Source: Bdellovibrionota bacterium (GTDB lineage: Bacteria; Bdellovibrionota; Bdellovibrionia; Bdellovibrionales; JAMPXM01). From it: a stretch of 51,308 nt of DNA. The notes beneath the pieces were generated by a model. It ran no database searches, was not told where the DNA came from, and saw nothing but the letters and a program-made list of their open reading frames with translations. Each line of letters starts with the position of its first letter. The first letter of the stretch is position 1. A program made the position numbers and the translations under genes. Positions 31,041 through 43,578 of this stretch are shown here, piece by piece. The stretch spans positions 1 to 51,308 of the forward strand of contig CAUJGS010000029.1 in assembly GCA_963170185.1 (NCBI GenBank), read 5' to 3'.

Positions 31041-33002
31041 ATGGACCATTTTGATGTCATTGTAGTTGGAGCCGGTCATGCCGGTTTGGAAGCGTGTTTG
31101 GCGAGTGCTCGCATGGGCCTTCGCGTGGCGCTCGTGACATCGAACCTCTCGCGCATCGGATACATGAGCTGCAACCCATCGATTGGCGGTTTGGCGAAAG
31201 GCCACATGGTTCGCGAGGTCGATGCGCTTGGCGGTGAAATGGGTCTTGCGGCCGATGCGACCTGCATTCAGTTCAAGCGGCTCAATTCTCGAAAAGGTCC
31301 GGCCGTCCGCGGTTCACGTGCGCAGTGTGATAAAGATCTCTACGTCGACTACATGACCGCAAAGGTTCGTTCGACGCCGGGTCTGGAGATTGTCGGGAGC
31401 GAAGCCAAGAGTTTGATTCTGGAAGATGGACGCTGCGTGGGTGTAAATCTGGAAGACGGCTCTAAGCTGCGCGCACGGGCGGTCGTTTTGACCACCGGCA
31501 CCTTCATGCGAGGGGTCATGCACATAGGTCTCAAGCAGATGGACGGTGGCCGCGTCGGCGATAAGGCGACCATCGGAATCAGTGACCAGCTTCGCGAGCA
31601 TGGTTTCGTCGTTCAGCGCTTAAAGACTGGGACTCCGGCACGACTTAAGGCGGGCTCGATTGATTTTTCCAAAACGGTTCCGCAACCGGGTGACGAGAAG
31701 TTCTATCCGTTCTCGTCGCGTAGCTCGGAGAAACTGGCCCTGCCGCAGGTAAACTGCTGGCTTAGTCACACCAACGAACGAACGCACGAGATCATCCGCA
31801 AGAACCTCGACAAAAGCCCTATGTTCTGCGGAAACATCGAAGGACGAGGTCCGCGATACTGCCCAAGCATCGAAGACAAGATCACTCGATTTGCGGAGAA
31901 AATCTCGCATCAGACTTTTTTGGAGCCCGAGGGGCTTTCGACGGATTGGATTTATCTCCAGGGTATTTCGACAAGTCTCCCGGAAGATGTTCAGCTGGAG
32001 TTTCTTCGCACGATCGATGGGCTCGAGAATGTCGAAGTTCATCGTTACGGTTATGCGGTCGAATACGACTTCATCGAGCCAACGCAGATTCGCCACTCTT
32101 TAGAAACGCGCTCGATACCTGGACTTTTCTTGGCCGGCCAGATCAACGGTACAAGTGGATACGAGGAAGCAGCCGCTCAAGGTTTTATTGCGGGCGTGAA
32201 TGCGGCTCGAAGTGTGCGAGGCGAAGAGAGTTTTGTGCTCGGCCGTGACGAAGCGTACATCGGTGTTCTCATCGATGATCTCGTGACGAAGGGAACGAAA
32301 GAACCTTACCGAATGTTCACCTCTCGGGCTGAACACAGGCTTGTCCTAAGAGAAGATAACACGTTGGAACGTCTCTGGAATCGCGCAACTGAACTTGGCG
32401 TCATCGATGATGGCCAAAAGCATCGTCTCGAAATGACACTCGCGAAACGCGAGGAACTTCGTTCGGTTTTGAAGAGCACGGTTCTGACTCCAACTGCGGA
32501 AACGCAGTCCAAACTTGAGGCGCTAGGAACTGCAAAGCTCCTAAAACCGATGACAGCCGAAGAAGTTTTAAGACGACATGAAGTCTGCTTCGAAGACCTG
32601 GCGGGATTCGGTCTTTCCGGAGATTATGAAGTAAATGTTGTTGAGCCGGTTGAGATTGAAGTTAAGTACGCCGGTTATATTCAACGTGAGAACGAATTGA
32701 TTCGTTCTAATAGACGGTTTGAAGCTACCAAGATCCCGAGTGAGCTGGATTACGGGTTGATCAAGGGGCTTTCGAAGGAAGAACAGGAAAAGCTTCAAGA
32801 GAAGCGGCCGGAGACATTGGGGCAAGCGAGCCGAATTAGCGGTGTGAATCCGTCGGCCATTCAGGCTCTGATTGTTTACCTCAAGGCGAAACGGAGTATT
32901 GTTGACGTCGAAGAATCCGAAACAGGCAGACGACGAGCTCTCATCGAGCGCGAACTTGCCCAAAGACAGCGACAAATTTCCGAACCCGAGCGAATCGTCT
33001 GA
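31041..33002 (+). CDS. mnmG: tRNA uridine-5-carboxymethylaminomethyl modification enzyme MnmG
   Basis: The 653-residue FAD protein is the partner of MnmE. The dinucleotide fold [19 protein letters not shown] is at the N-terminus. [22 protein letters not shown] and [11 protein letters not shown] are strict family markers, and [12 protein letters not shown] follows in the middle. The C-terminal helical domain ends [15 protein letters not shown]. The last residues after about 630 ([19 protein letters not shown]...) are a non-conserved, charged tail. The stop lies close to the rsmG start. Confidence 0.97.
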
Positions 33003-33009
33003 TTCTCTG

Positions 33010-33651
33010 TTGAATGGGTTTAGCTCACGATTTGCGGAATGGGCGCCCGCGCTAACTTCGGAACAAGTCGATCAGTTGAAGCGCTACCTTGGCGAGCTTC
33101 TGCGCTTCAATAAGAAGTTGAATCTGATCTCCCCAGGCACCTCCCAACGCGCTGACACGGTGCATATATTAGACGCTGTGCGCGCCTGGTCCTTGGTCGC
33201 GCCCCACATCCCCAAGGGACAAACGGTACACGACTTTGGTTCGGGTAATGGTCTTCCTGGAATGGTTGCGGCGGTGTTGTCACCGGATCTGGTTCTTCGT
33301 CTGGTTGATCGCGATCAGCGGAAGATGGAGTTTCTTAAACACGTTGGTTCGATGCTCGGTCTTAAGAACGTGATCTTTAGCTGTCAGAGTTTGCAGGATC
33401 TGGAAGATGAGTCGGTGAATTTTGCCATTTCTCGTGGGTTTGCCAGCGTGTCGAATTCGTTGATTCAGAGTCGACGGCTGTTTACCGGGGGCGGCGTCTT
33501 TTATATGATGAAAGGCGAAGGCTGGTCTCGCGAGCTAGTTGAGGTTCAACCACAGATTTTCCGGGATTGGTCGGCCGAAATGCTGGGGCAATACGGTCTC
33601 CCCGAGTCTCCGGCCGAATACGTCGTTCTTCAGGCCCGTCGACGCTCCTAA
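33010..33651 (+). CDS. rsmG: 16S rRNA (guanine-N7)-methyltransferase RsmG
   Basis: A 213-residue SAM-dependent enzyme that methylates G527 of 16S rRNA. The SAM loop DFGSGNGLPGMV and the following VDRDQRKMEFLKHV are typical, as is the N-terminal RFNKKLNLIS segment. The start is uncertain. The frame is open back to a TTG at 32872 within mnmG. The TTG at 33010 gives the usual family length and begins just after mnmG ends, but no strong ribosome-binding site is visible for either, so coupling to mnmG translation is likely. A parS site lies 17 nt after the stop. Confidence 0.9.
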   Translation: MNGFSSRFAEWAPALTSEQVDQLKRYLGELLRFNKKLNLISPGTSQRADTVHILDAVRAWSLVAPHIPKGQTVHDFGSGNGLPGMVAAVLSPDLVLRLVDRDQRKMEFLKHVGSMLGLKNVIFSCQSLQDLEDESVNFAISRGFASVSNSLIQSRRLFTGGGVFYMMKGEGWSRELVEVQPQIFRDWSAEMLGQYGLPESPAEYVVLQARRRS

Positions 33652-33668: not shown

Positions 33669-33684
33669 TGTTCCACGTGGAACA
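33669..33684. promoter_or_regulatory. parS: parS centromere site 1 (perfect palindrome)
   Basis: TGTTCCACGTGGAACA is a perfect 16-bp palindrome of the universal chromosomal parS type, differing from the Bacillus sequence only by the symmetrical C/G change. ParB clamps load here and spread, and the origin region is segregated through ParA. It sits between the 3' ends of rsmG and the reversed lipoprotein gene. Confidence 0.95.
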
Positions 33685-33690
33685 ATAAGA

Positions 33691-34275
33691 TTAGTGGCCT
33701 TTTGCGGGCTTTAGCTTCGCATCGAGCTCGTCTCGGAGCTCTTTTTCGGACTTTCTGTTGTATCTCTCGGTCTTCTGTAGACGGGAGTTCCATTCGCGAG
33801 GAGCATCTTCTAGGCGTCGTTGGAGCTTGTAGGCCTCAAAATCTTTAGGATCTGGCCATTTCTCGCCCCGGTCATAGGCTTCAAGGTAGGACTTTCGCGC
33901 GTAGTCCTTCCTCTGCTGTGCCCGAATCTCGAAATAGAGGGCTTCCTGGTCGGCAACCATCAGCTGTGTCTCTTTTTTCGTTATATCTTGCTGTACCTTG
34001 CGGCGACTGGGATCTCTCGCCGGCAGAGCCTCGAGATCTTCGCGAAGCTGCTTGATCTCCTCTTTGGCTGTTTCTGCGGCCGCTTTAGCGACGGAACTGC
34101 GTCCGATGAGATCCATATAGATGGGATCGGTATTTTCTGGTGTCGGATTTGGCCTTGAGCAGCCAAAGATGAAGCTTGTAAGTACGCAGATGACTACCAA
34201 TGCCCCGAAACCTACCGATGTCAGGTAGTCATTGTGGGCGCGTTTTCTTCTGCTGGATGACCGTTGGTTGCTCAT
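33691..34275 (-). CDS. Uncharacterised coiled-coil lipoprotein between two parS sites
   Basis: This 194-residue protein is not recognised as a named family. A basic N-terminus (SSSRRKRAH) and a hydrophobic stretch (about 18-37) end in a lipobox-like FIFGC (Cys39), so it is probably exported and lipid-anchored. Charged, helix-forming sequence follows. A coiled-coil-like part (about 60-120, AKEEIKQLREDLEAL, TKKETQLMVADQEA) precedes a very polar C-terminus rich in Lys, Arg and Glu. It is the only minus-strand gene between rpmH and nagZ. One parS lies 7 nt beyond its stop and the other 34 nt before its start. The ATG at 34275 has no strong ribosome-binding site. It could also be a single-pass inner-membrane protein if the cysteine is not processed. 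Confidence 0.72.
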   Translation of the reverse strand: MSNQRSSSRRKRAHNDYLTSVGFGALVVICVLTSFIFGCSRPNPTPENTDPIYMDLIGRSSVAKAAAETAKEEIKQLREDLEALPARDPSRRKVQQDITKKETQLMVADQEALYFEIRAQQRKDYARKSYLEAYDRGEKWPDPKDFEAYKLQRRLEDAPREWNSRLQKTERYNRKSEKELRDELDAKLKPAKGH

Positions 34276-34308
34276 TCTCGCGTGCTGCCTATCACTAGCT
34301 ATTCAGAA

Positions 34309-34324
34309 TGTTCTACGTGGAACA
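34309..34324. promoter_or_regulatory. parS: parS centromere site 2 (one mismatch)
   Basis: TGTTCTACGTGGAACA differs by one base (C to T at the sixth position) from the perfect parS 640 nt away. It lies in the divergent control region between the reversed lipoprotein gene and parA, so ParB bound here could also repress these promoters. Confidence 0.88.
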
Positions 34325-34446
34325 TTCGTGATTGATCACATAGTCAAAAGCTTATCGGCATGTCCGTCTGCGAAATGAGTTGAAATTCAATTGTGAGCAC
34401 GGTCTAACTTTATGTCGTCCAATTGGAAGGACACCTGGAGGGGCTA

Positions 34447-35337
34447 ATGGCGCGTATTATCTGTATCGCGAACCAAAAAGGCGGAGTCGGTAAAACCACA
34501 ACATCTGTTAATCTTTCTGCATGCTTAGCGGCTCGTGGTCGCAAGGTTTTGCTGGTTGATCTCGATCCTCAGGGCAATGCTTCTAGCGGTCTTGGACTGA
34601 AAAAGTATGAGTACCAAGAGGCGAATATCTATCACGTACTCATCGGCGAAAAGACTCTCGAGGAGATCCGTCGACCGACCTCGAACGAAAACCTCTGGGT
34701 AGCCCCGGCGACACCTGATCTTGTAGGTGCAGAGATTGAGCTTGTAGATGCGCCGCGTCGCGAATTCCGCCTACGTGAAGCGATCGGAGCCATTGCCGAC
34801 CAGTACGATTACGTACTCATCGATTGCCCGCCTTCGCTTGGGCTTTTGACACTAAACTCGTTGGCAGCGGCGAACACATTCTTGGTACCTCTTCAGTGCG
34901 AGTACTATGCGCTCGAAGGACTTTCGCAGCTTCTTACGACCGCGGGTCTTGTGAAGAAGAACATCAATCCAGAGTTGCGCATCGAGGGTATTCTTCTGAC
35001 GATGTTTGCGGCGAGCAACAACCTCAGCCACCAGGTCGTTTCGGAAATCCAAACGCACTTCGGAGACAAAGTCTTCAAGGCGATCATTCCAAGAAACGTT
35101 CGCCTCAGCGAAGCACCATCACATGGACAGTCGATTCTTGAATATGAACCGCGATCTGTCGGTGCTTTGAAATACCAAGAGCTTGCGCTCGAACTCGACA
35201 CTCGTGTTTTTGGTCAAGCGACTACTCAAAATCAAGAGATGGAGAGTGTTGAAACCGCGTCCGCTGACCAGTCAGTGCCGGCGAATATGAATGCTCAAAT
35301 AAACAATCAGGCCGTGCAGGAGGGCGCAAATGTCTGA
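34447..35337 (+). CDS. parA: Chromosome partitioning ATPase ParA
   Basis: The 296-residue Walker-type ATPase binds DNA non-specifically with ATP and is released by ParB, pulling the origin. The deviant Walker A KGGVGKTT (residues 11-18) opens the protein. DLDPQGNASSGLG, YDYVLIDCPPSLGLLT and IPRNVRLSEAPSHGQSI are typical. After about residue 255 there is a polar tail of roughly 40 residues (NQEMESVETASADQS...) that the family normally lacks. The ATG at 34447 follows GGAGGGG; an earlier in-frame start adds eight unconserved residues. It overlaps parB by 8 nt. Confidence 0.97.
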   Translation: MARIICIANQKGGVGKTTTSVNLSACLAARGRKVLLVDLDPQGNASSGLGLKKYEYQEANIYHVLIGEKTLEEIRRPTSNENLWVAPATPDLVGAEIELVDAPRREFRLREAIGAIADQYDYVLIDCPPSLGLLTLNSLAAANTFLVPLQCEYYALEGLSQLLTTAGLVKKNINPELRIEGILLTMFAASNNLSHQVVSEIQTHFGDKVFKAIIPRNVRLSEAPSHGQSILEYEPRSVGALKYQELALELDTRVFGQATTQNQEMESVETASADQSVPANMNAQINNQAVQEGANV

Positions 35338-36526
35338 CGTAACAAACGTTTCTCAGAACAACTCCAAGTCCTCAAAGCCACGTCTGGGCCGTGGCCTGGG
35401 TAGTCTTCTAAGTGGGGTGGATACTCAGGACACCACAGGTCGTCCAAAAATGGGTTCTGATTTCGATTCACTCGTGCCACAGGCGAAAATTCCTGCGGTT
35501 GTCGAACAAGTGCCTGTGGCGAACTCCGCTAACCAACCAGAAGTTCAAGCAAAAGTTGAAACTGTCGTCGTCGAAAAAATCGTCGAAGTTGAAAAGCTGG
35601 TCGAAGTAGAGAAGGTCGTCGAAAAAATCGTTGAGGTCGAAAAAGTCGTCGAAAAAGAGGCCTCTCCGATTCCTGAGACCGCCCGAATTTGGACAGTCTC
35701 TATCGAAAAACTGAGTCCGAACACTCAGCAGCCTCGTCAGGTTTTCGAAGACACGGCACTGAAAGAACTCTCGGCATCGATCAAAGAAAAAGGAATTCTC
35801 CAGCCGATCAGCGCTCGCCGTAAGTCGGAAACGGAATTCGAAATCATCGCGGGTGAACGCCGTTGGCGTGCGGCTCAGATGGCCGGACTTAAAGAAGTGC
35901 CGGTGATTCTAAAAGAGGCCGATGAGCAAGACTCTCTGGAACTCGCGATTCTAGAAAACATTCAGCGCGCGGATCTCAACCCGGTGGAAGAAGCGGAAGC
36001 TTACGACCACTTGATGAAGACCTACAATCTCACACAGGTCCAGGTTGCGGATCGCCTAGGTAAAGAACGGCCAACGATTGCCAACGCACTCCGCCTTTTG
36101 GTTCTTCCTCCGGAAGTGAAACTGATGATCGGCGGCGGTGAATTGAGTGCGGGTCATGCAAAAGTTCTTTTGGGACTTGAAAGCATGGCCGACCAGATTT
36201 CTTTGGCAAAAGAAGTCATTCGCGAAAAGCTTTCGGTTCGTGCTCTGGAAAAGAAAGTTGCAGAGAAAAAGTCGCAGGCATCGGGCTCGCAGGTCGTTCG
36301 TCCTGGTGGTTCGATGGGGATCGACGTTTCGGCAAAACTGGTTGAGGCGTTGGCCGGTGAACTTCAGAAGCTGATCGGCACGCGTGTTGTCATTGACTAC
36401 GCGGACCGCCGGGGCAAACTGAGTGTCTATTTCCACTCGGATGAACAGCTGACGGAGATCGTCGAAAGGATGAGAAAAGGATGGGCGAAACCGAGCGCGG
36501 CTCCGACCGTGTCTTCCCGAAACTGA
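35330..36526 (+). CDS. parB: Chromosome partitioning protein ParB, with a Val-Glu-Lys repeat linker
   Basis: The 398-residue ParB binds parS and CTP and stimulates ParA. The N-terminus has the ParA-contact motif RLGRGLGSLL (18-27). Residues 76-110 are a repeat of VEK/VEV units (VEKIVEVEKLVEVEKVVEK...) between that motif and the CTPase domain, which is unusual. The CTP-binding/ParB fold runs from about 120, with QQPRQVF and the catalytic GERRWRA. The helix-turn-helix (LTQVQVADRLGKERPTIANALRL) and a C-terminal dimer domain follow. The ATG overlaps the parA end (ATGTCTGA). The bactofilin frame starts inside its last 46 nt. Confidence 0.97.
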   Translation: MSDVTNVSQNNSKSSKPRLGRGLGSLLSGVDTQDTTGRPKMGSDFDSLVPQAKIPAVVEQVPVANSANQPEVQAKVETVVVEKIVEVEKLVEVEKVVEKIVEVEKVVEKEASPIPETARIWTVSIEKLSPNTQQPRQVFEDTALKELSASIKEKGILQPISARRKSETEFEIIAGERRWRAAQMAGLKEVPVILKEADEQDSLELAILENIQRADLNPVEEAEAYDHLMKTYNLTQVQVADRLGKERPTIANALRLLVLPPEVKLMIGGGELSAGHAKVLLGLESMADQISLAKEVIREKLSVRALEKKVAEKKSQASGSQVVRPGGSMGIDVSAKLVEALAGELQKLIGTRVVIDYADRRGKLSVYFHSDEQLTEIVERMRKGWAKPSAAPTVSSRN

Positions 36527-36882
36527 TGCCGGAATCGACGATCACCGACGGGCGCCTAACGGCGCTCCTCGACGAGGGCGCTCAATTTGAGGGAAAACTC
36601 TCTTTTGAGGGTGTCGTCCGAATCGGTGGCGCCTTCAAGGGCGAGATTTTTACCCGAGACACGCTTGTCATAAATCCCGGTGCGATGGTCGAGGCCGAAG
36701 TCGAGGCGGATGTCGTTGTCATTTCCGGAACCTTCGTAGGCAGTGTTGCTGCGAGACGGCGCGTCATCATGCATCCACCCGCAATTTTTCGAGGAACCGT
36801 GACGACCCCGAGTCTTCGCATCGACGAGGGTGTGACCTTCGAAGGCGCTTCCTATATGCCTAGTTCTTCAGCAGCCACATAG
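36481..36882 (+). CDS. Bactofilin-family cytoskeletal protein
   Basis: A 133-residue (118 if shorter) bactofilin. Short hydrophobic repeats typical of the right-handed beta-helix run through the protein (FEGKLSFEGVVRIGGAFKGEI, VINPGAMVEAEVEADVVVISG, GSVAARRRVIMHPPAIFRGTV). Bactofilins polymerise without nucleotide and act as polar or envelope scaffolds. In Myxococcus they hold ParABS near the poles. The first ATG (36481) overlaps parB by 46 nt and has AAAAGG directly next to it. A second ATG at 36526 shares the parB stop (TGATG) and would fit coupled translation. Either way it belongs to the par operon, which supports a role in origin or pole organisation. Confidence 0.9.
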   Translation: MGETERGSDRVFPKLMPESTITDGRLTALLDEGAQFEGKLSFEGVVRIGGAFKGEIFTRDTLVINPGAMVEAEVEADVVVISGTFVGSVAARRRVIMHPPAIFRGTVTTPSLRIDEGVTFEGASYMPSSSAAT

Positions 36883-42984: not shown

Positions 42985-43578
42985 GTGGCAGTCGCCGAAA
43001 TCGATTTCACGAATGTAAAACCGAAGCCCGAAAGGCTTCGGTTTTTTATTTCTCAGTTCGGCATCGAAGCCGAATATGAATTCGTTTGCACGGAAACCTC
43101 GCCTGGCTCGCTTGATATTCGGGCCGAATTTCAAATCGTTGGCGGTGTTTTGACGAAAATGATTCCGATAAAGTCGTACCGCGAAGAACTTCATTTCTCA
43201 TATGAAAGCGGGCGAGAGCTTCGTCGAGAAACAGTGTTTAAGACGGGCGAGCCCAAGCGCCAGCAAATGGCATGGGACGACCTATCTCTGCCCTCGACGG
43301 CCGAAACGCCATGGGTGTTGGAGGCGGTTTGGCGAAATCTGCTTGAGGGAAAACTGCGGGACGCGAAGTTTCAGTTCCATGACGGTCGATCGGTCGTGGG
43401 CGGAGTGATAAAAGTGAAAGAGCTGTTTCGCAATGAAGGCAGCGGTACAGGAAAGCTTCTCGTTGAGAGCGCTAGGCGGTTTGAAGCGGATCTTGATTTT
43501 CACGGGTATCGGTTGCGCTCGATGAGCGTTGAGATGCCGGTTATTGGAAAGCTTCGTCTGAATCGGCGCGACGACTGA
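42985..43578 (+). CDS. Uncharacterised protein; 5' end contains the atp terminator
   Basis: A frame of 197 codons from a GTG, with no recognised family. The strand-rich pattern and the ending SMSVEMPVIGKLRLN faintly recall DUF3108-type beta proteins, but not enough to assign. The proposed N-terminus (KPKPERLRFF, residues 12-21) is encoded by the terminator hairpin at 43021-43051. Either the true start lies downstream (a TTG at 43153 or the ATG at 43162 are the next in-frame choices), or the gene is read only by antitermination or read-through. No strong ribosome-binding site precedes the GTG. Its 3' end overlaps the converging nagZ-like gene by 38 nt. Confidence 0.55.
   Translation: MAVAEIDFTNVKPKPERLRFFISQFGIEAEYEFVCTETSPGSLDIRAEFQIVGGVLTKMIPIKSYREELHFSYESGRELRRETVFKTGEPKRQQMAWDDLSLPSTAETPWVLEAVWRNLLEGKLRDAKFQFHDGRSVVGGVIKVKELFRNEGSGTGKLLVESARRFEADLDFHGYRLRSMSVEMPVIGKLRLNRRDD
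43021..43051 (+). terminator. Rho-independent terminator of the atp operon
   Basis: CCGAAGCC and GGCTTCGG form a perfect 8-bp stem around the loop CGAAA, followed at once by TTTTTTATTT. It lies 57 nt after atpC and inside the 5' end of the next reading frame. AAAA upstream gives weaker potential on the other strand. Confidence 0.93.

Follow-up and report, generated by a model that had tools for sequence, protein, structure and literature searches.

Why a single lipoprotein gene should lie between the two parS sites beside parA, reading against its neighbours, is the question raised by this locus. The window, i.e. the whole stretch of DNA analysed (51,308 nucleotides), is one whole contig. It carries dnaA, dnaN, recF, gyrB and gyrA on the minus strand and yidC, jag, mnmE, mnmG, gidB, parA, parB, a bactofilin gene and ATP-synthase genes on the plus strand, and this gene content indicates the origin region of a Bdellovibrio-type bacterium. 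The preliminary description of a perfect parS and a one-mismatch parS 640 nt apart, enclosing one minus-strand gene, proved correct as to both sites, their spacing and the open reading frame (33691-34275). The gene is indeed the only one against the flow in 17 kb, no other minus-strand gene being present between dnaA (minus strand, to 26146) and a minus-strand gene starting at 43541. Its reading frame occupies the interval between the sites, ending 6 nt from parS1 and having its ATG 33 nt from parS2. The features of the locus are:

32872 to 33651, plus strand: gidB/rsmG (Pfam GidB, E 5e-32); reading frame taken from the first TTG, true start uncertain.
33669 to 33684, strand not applicable: parS1, TGTTCCACGTGGAACA, perfect, flanked by the stop codons of gidB and the lipoprotein gene; a parS is found here in 53 of 56 loci.
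33691 to 34275, minus strand: lipoprotein gene, 194 aa, with signal peptide, lipobox FGC and helical hairpin; homologue of B. bacteriovorus bd3907 (bd3908/bd3907/parA/parB/bactofilin synteny, PMC10547168).
34309 to 34324, strand not applicable: parS2, TGTTCTACGTGGAACA, one mismatch; a parS is found here in 54 of 56 loci.
34353 to 34358, minus strand: predicted sigma28 (FliA) -10 box CCGATA, conserved in 5/5 members of the genus, in the register of the organism's own flagellin promoters.
34375 to 34379, minus strand: predicted sigma28 -35 region CTCAT, weak (2 of 5 matches to TTAAG; own flagellins CTCAAG).
34380 to 34408, plus strand: predicted parA promoter TTGAAA-N17-TCTAAC, divergent and sigma70-like, conserved in 5/5 genus members as read from the alignment.
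34447 to 35337, plus strand: parA (Pfam AAA_31, E 2e-67).
35330 to 36526, plus strand: parB (Pfam HTH_ParB, ParB_N and ParB_C).
36481 to 36882, plus strand: bactofilin gene (Pfam Bactofilin, E 9e-25).

The term perfect refers here to TGTTCCACGTGGAACA, the form used in the order; against the textbook TGTTTCACGTGAAACA the two sites have 2 and 3 mismatches. The 3.54-Mb assembly contains no further site with at most one mismatch, the next best having 2, and exactly two such sites are present in most of 60 relatives, while the reversed control pattern gave almost none. The sites of the window organism are thus 16-bp palindromes in few copies near oriC and parAB, as is characteristic of parS, and for the parS sites of B. 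bacteriovorus ParB binding has been demonstrated (PMC10547168). RNA folding of the parS1 region gave nothing remarkable. The number and form of the sites vary among the relatives. Five copies lie on the gidB side in G005, repeated in tandem at intervals of about 38 bp (locus L090, 2507-2673), and likewise five in G006 (L091, 1642-2348). In G013 (L097, parA forward) both sites are altered, to AGTTCTACGTAGAACT at 2274-2289 and TGTTCTACGTAGAACT at 2759-2774, and the gene is still bracketed; this joint change suggests co-evolution of ParB and parS. One contig of G263 (C79, L220) carries parA and gidB and has TGTTTCACGTGAAACA within its gidB; it differs in this from the remainder of the order and is possibly a contaminant.

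A synteny comparison, of the kind suggested with the preliminary description, found the arrangement conserved across the order and also in f11, an outgroup order of the same class. A homologue of the 194-aa protein was detected in 55 of 60 relatives (E <= 1, with a few weak matches), its position beside parB being verified in the loci that were fetched. Among 56 loci with the gene, from ten families of the order, with up to 4 mismatches allowed for a parS-like site, nearly all have the bracketed layout; those short of a site are at contig edges, many of the assemblies being drafts, apart from G029 (no parS2) and G016 (degenerate parS1). The stop codon is usually 1-26 nt from parS1 and the start codon mostly 0-47 nt from parS2, and the median parS spacing is 561. 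In f11 the gene is found between gidB and parA, beside parS. A scan of named genomes with a narrower lipoprotein alignment returned six Bdellovibrio-type loci, and in a profile search covering 291 genomes of the phylum all strong matches lay inside the class. Judged from these comparisons, the bracketed layout is ancient. Several genomes of other classes have a parS upstream of parA and no lipoprotein gene, so that the gene was probably a later addition to an older parS-parAB arrangement.

The product has the N-terminal hydrophobic stretch and the lipobox that define a lipoprotein. The lipobox Cys is invariant in 52/52 homologues, with G, A or S at position -1 in all 52, which agrees with the coiled-coil lipoprotein of the preliminary description. 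The Cys is followed by a conserved PxPxPELxDPIY-like motif, and the predicted structure is a helical hairpin with a core confidence >90 and a tail of low confidence. This tail ends in His in 28/56 homologues, often as GGH or HH (33691-33696 in the window). Neither Pfam nor NCBIfam gave a consistent family match, known flagellar lipoprotein families included; a fold search returned generic coiled coils only, none at E <= 0.001, and a sequence search of the PDB nothing except two coiled coils, short or designed, at E ~0.05. The gene evolves under purifying selection, with dN/dS values of 0.02-0.18. The idea that it is kept as spacer DNA to separate the parS sites was rejected on the basis of these values and of the protein motifs conserved across families, and also because the parS sites are spaced differently within this gap in genomes without the gene, e.g. 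about 200 bp apart in G042.

The DNA between the lipoprotein gene and parA carries a signature of a sigma28 promoter, a feature beyond the preliminary description, which points to sigma28 control of the gene. The attack-phase FliA consensus of B. bacteriovorus, derived from its transcriptome, is TTAAG-N16-CCGATA (PMC3627812). In the gene-parA gap CCGAT occurs in the direction of the gene in 46/54 loci, being missing from the other 8, versus 1/54 on the opposite strand, which served as a control on the same DNA. The -35-like box has 2-5 of 5 matches, with a spacing of mostly N16. It is weak (2/5) in the genus of the window, where the best promoter score was also reached by about 12-24% of shuffles; flagellin promoters of the window organism itself have the form of e.g. 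CTCAAG-N15-CCGATGAG. The CCGAT box was not seen in other classes. The predicted parA promoter and the predicted sigma28 promoter adjoin each other back to back, and the polymerases at the two would be expected to compete as well; a strict sigma70 scan found nothing and missed this promoter-like pair.

The predicted promoter is closely connected with parS2. CCGA abuts parS2 in 36/54 loci versus parS1 in 2/53, and no sigma28 box above background was found near parS1. Divided by family, contact or overlap between the -10 box and parS2 is seen in 16/16 loci of f9, 11/13 of f4, 6/12 of f1 and 3/5 of f6, in forms such as CCGA-TGTTCCACGTGGAACA or CCGAT-TGTTCC..., and B. bacteriovorus strain kdesi has TTATG-N16-CCGATG fused to parS2. 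With this arrangement the transcription start would fall inside parS2; in the window, parS2 would be part of the gene's 5' untranslated region. In f2, f3, f5 and f8 the order is different, parS2 lying immediately upstream of the -35 box, and the outgroup genome G274 shows this form too; in the genus of the window parS2 lies 11-32 nt downstream of the -10 box and is not fused with it. A parS is thus found in or beside the predicted lipoprotein promoter, as would be expected of a gene repressed by ParB. That CCGA is a general part of an extended parS motif was rejected: parS1 lacks it, it was not seen in outgroup classes, genomes without the lipoprotein gene have lost it, and the promoter is on the other side of parS2 in f2, f3, f5 and f8. 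In four loci (L090, L093, L094 and L116) plausible lipoprotein start codons, GTG and some TTG, are in or overlap the parS2 palindrome, and here the centromere site perhaps supplies the start codon of a leaderless mRNA.

These connections have to be weighed against the simpler explanation that an attack-phase lipoprotein gene ended up by chance in the conserved stretch from gidB to parA, with parS on its flanks by necessity and no regulation involved. Gene order near oriC is conserved anyway, and with short intergenic gaps a parS near the start and another near the stop are partly forced; furthermore, parS is retained in genomes without the gene and is in that respect independent of it. Such a neutral position would, however, not account for the fusion of the -10 box to one parS and hardly ever to the other, nor for the parS2 that abuts the -35 box in f2, f3, f5 and f8 although the gap is often 70-130 nt. 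It is also at odds with the persistence of the bracketing pair in G013, where the sites themselves have changed. We regard a passenger gene as possible but somewhat unlikely.

The genomes without the gene provide a clue to its function. Profile searches gave no convincing homologue in nine members of the order (G015, G042, G056, G208, G232, G243, G252, G263 and G288), which have genomes of 1.2-2.4 Mb and belong to family f4. Flagellin and FliG (FliG_C) are absent from all nine, yet FliA is kept; in fact FliA (TIGR02479) was above the cut-off in 19/19 genomes tested, flagella-less ones included, so that loss of FliA was rejected as the reason for the absence of the gene. Flagellin was found in every gene-carrying genome tested, and FliG in those tested for it. 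Of two apparent exceptions, G299 does encode a lipoprotein at this position, though a divergent one, and in G227 the locus is probably in an assembly gap, since the assembly has no parS and parB starts its contig. The presence of the lipoprotein thus tracks the flagellum within the order, and this joint absence with flagellin and FliG also goes beyond the preliminary description. Loss is seen only in the flagella-less genomes of f4, not in close relatives that share the same parS layout, and on this point the preliminary description stands. The genomes without the gene fall in two or three groups in the ParAB tree, indicating one to three losses, and the co-loss of gene and flagella is accordingly not strongly independent, being one to three events in one family with shrunken genomes. 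In most of them parS is still near parA. Where the gap could be read, in five of these genomes, the promoter box is missing; the sole CCGAT near parA in G208 sits in the ribosome-binding region of parA. In G015 a region of about 1 kb (L225, 1-1100) contains three parS sites with non-coding DNA between them, and past the end of gidB it has no open reading frame of at least 60 aa; it resembles what erosion would leave of the lipoprotein region.

The same data bear on the proposal in the preliminary description that the lipoprotein ties the ParB-parS complex, and with it the origin, to the envelope or the pole. Polar adaptors are known among genes near parAB elsewhere, a bactofilin gene follows parB in the window, and the pole anchor of the Bdellovibrio origin is not known (PMC11318664). 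The invariant lipobox nevertheless implies an extracytoplasmic mature protein that cannot itself touch ParB or DNA, so that the cytoplasmic exposure of anchors of the PopZ or HubP type is lacking. ParABS and the parS pair moreover persist without the gene, the presence of which follows the flagellum. This role is not supported, and we regard it as very improbable.

The explanation that we prefer, and hold with moderate confidence, is that the gene encodes an attack-phase, flagellum-linked envelope lipoprotein with a sigma28 promoter that shares DNA with, or adjoins, parS2. From this promoter the gene would be transcribed by sigma28 (FliA) RNA polymerase, and the transcription unit would span the inter-parS interval, since one site (parS2) is within the promoter or early transcribed region and the other (parS1) closely follows the stop codon. 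In the swimming, non-replicating cell, with ParB off parS and FliA active, the gene would be on; in the growing cell, with parS2 covered by ParB and FliA low, it would be off. The product would most likely be a helical-hairpin lipoprotein of the outer membrane or periplasm, not an origin anchor, and may serve the flagellum, which is sheathed in Bdellovibrio, or the envelope of the flagellated cell. Many attack-phase genes with sigma28 promoters are not flagellar, which counts against a flagellar role. FliA is the attack-phase sigma factor in Bdellovibrio, and many envelope proteins belong to its regulon, with promoters of this same type (PMC3627812); the predicted lipoprotein promoter differs from these in overlapping a centromere site. 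A lipoprotein linked to a sheathed flagellum, as we infer here, has a parallel in HpaA of the Helicobacter flagellar sheath (PMC7175336), whereas the family in the window has no Pfam or NCBIfam match and is predicted to be all-helical.

Since the promoter shares DNA with the centromere, sigma28-RNA polymerase and ParB would be expected to exclude each other, and where parS2 is fused to the promoter, ParB at parS2 should interfere with expression of the gene. Chromosomal ParB spreading is not always gene-silencing, and this counts against exclusion. In P. aeruginosa the oriC-proximal parS3 and parS4 also adjoin promoters, and ParB represses these (PMC5521831); the promoter in the Bdellovibrio class differs in being predicted as sigma28 type and class-wide, and its repression by ParB would be putative. 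In Bdellovibrio, ParB is almost undetectable in attack phase and parS foci appear only once growth begins (PMC10547168). The shared DNA at parS2, together with this behaviour of ParB and the repression in P. aeruginosa, argues for mutual exclusion. The suggestion in the preliminary description that expression may respond to the segregation complex is strengthened by the conserved layout and by the fusion of parS2 to a predicted sigma28 promoter in most lineages, and the response itself would be a consequence of them.

Control may also run in the opposite direction: sigma28-RNA polymerase on this promoter may be, or form part of, whatever prevents ParB from occupying parS in attack-phase Bdellovibrio. 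With its chromosomal flanks of 242 and 330 bp, each parS is free of ParB foci in attack-phase Bdellovibrio, an effect not seen in E. coli (PMC10547168), and the predicted promoter is located in the parS2 flank, its -10 box overlapping parS2 in Bdellovibrio. Both flanks are effective, however, while parS1 has no conserved sigma28 box; FliA exists in E. coli too, and the genomes without the lipoprotein gene do without the promoter. We consider this reverse control unlikely. Layout, promoter and co-absence with flagella taken together suggest a switch between swimming and segregation of the chromosome, though they do not prove it. In its full two-state form, sigma28 polymerase would keep ParB off parS2 during swimming, with transcription sweeping from parS2 to parS1, and during growth ParB would occupy the same DNA and shut the flagellar-class gene; this is put forward tentatively, as a doubtful but specific proposal.

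The locus can be compared directly with parABS of B. bacteriovorus HD100, which has the same bd3908-bd3907-parA-parB-bactofilin order and two parS sites near oriC (PMC10547168), bd3907 being the homologue of the window lipoprotein by position and family. It is called just an "unknown protein" there, and the main text of that paper holds no lipoprotein, promoter or flagellar link for it. This protein beside parA now gains a family, a predicted location, a likely regulon and, from its occurrence in flagellated cells only, a lead to its function. Published work has left it as a question how Bdellovibrio closes its centromere during attack phase and reopens it once prey has been invaded, and has placed the factor responsible in the DNA flanking parS. 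The predicted sigma28 promoter overlapping parS2, conserved class-wide, offers a concrete candidate in the parS2 flank. If the two-state switch is true, one shared DNA element would wire centromere competence directly to the decision between swimming and growth.
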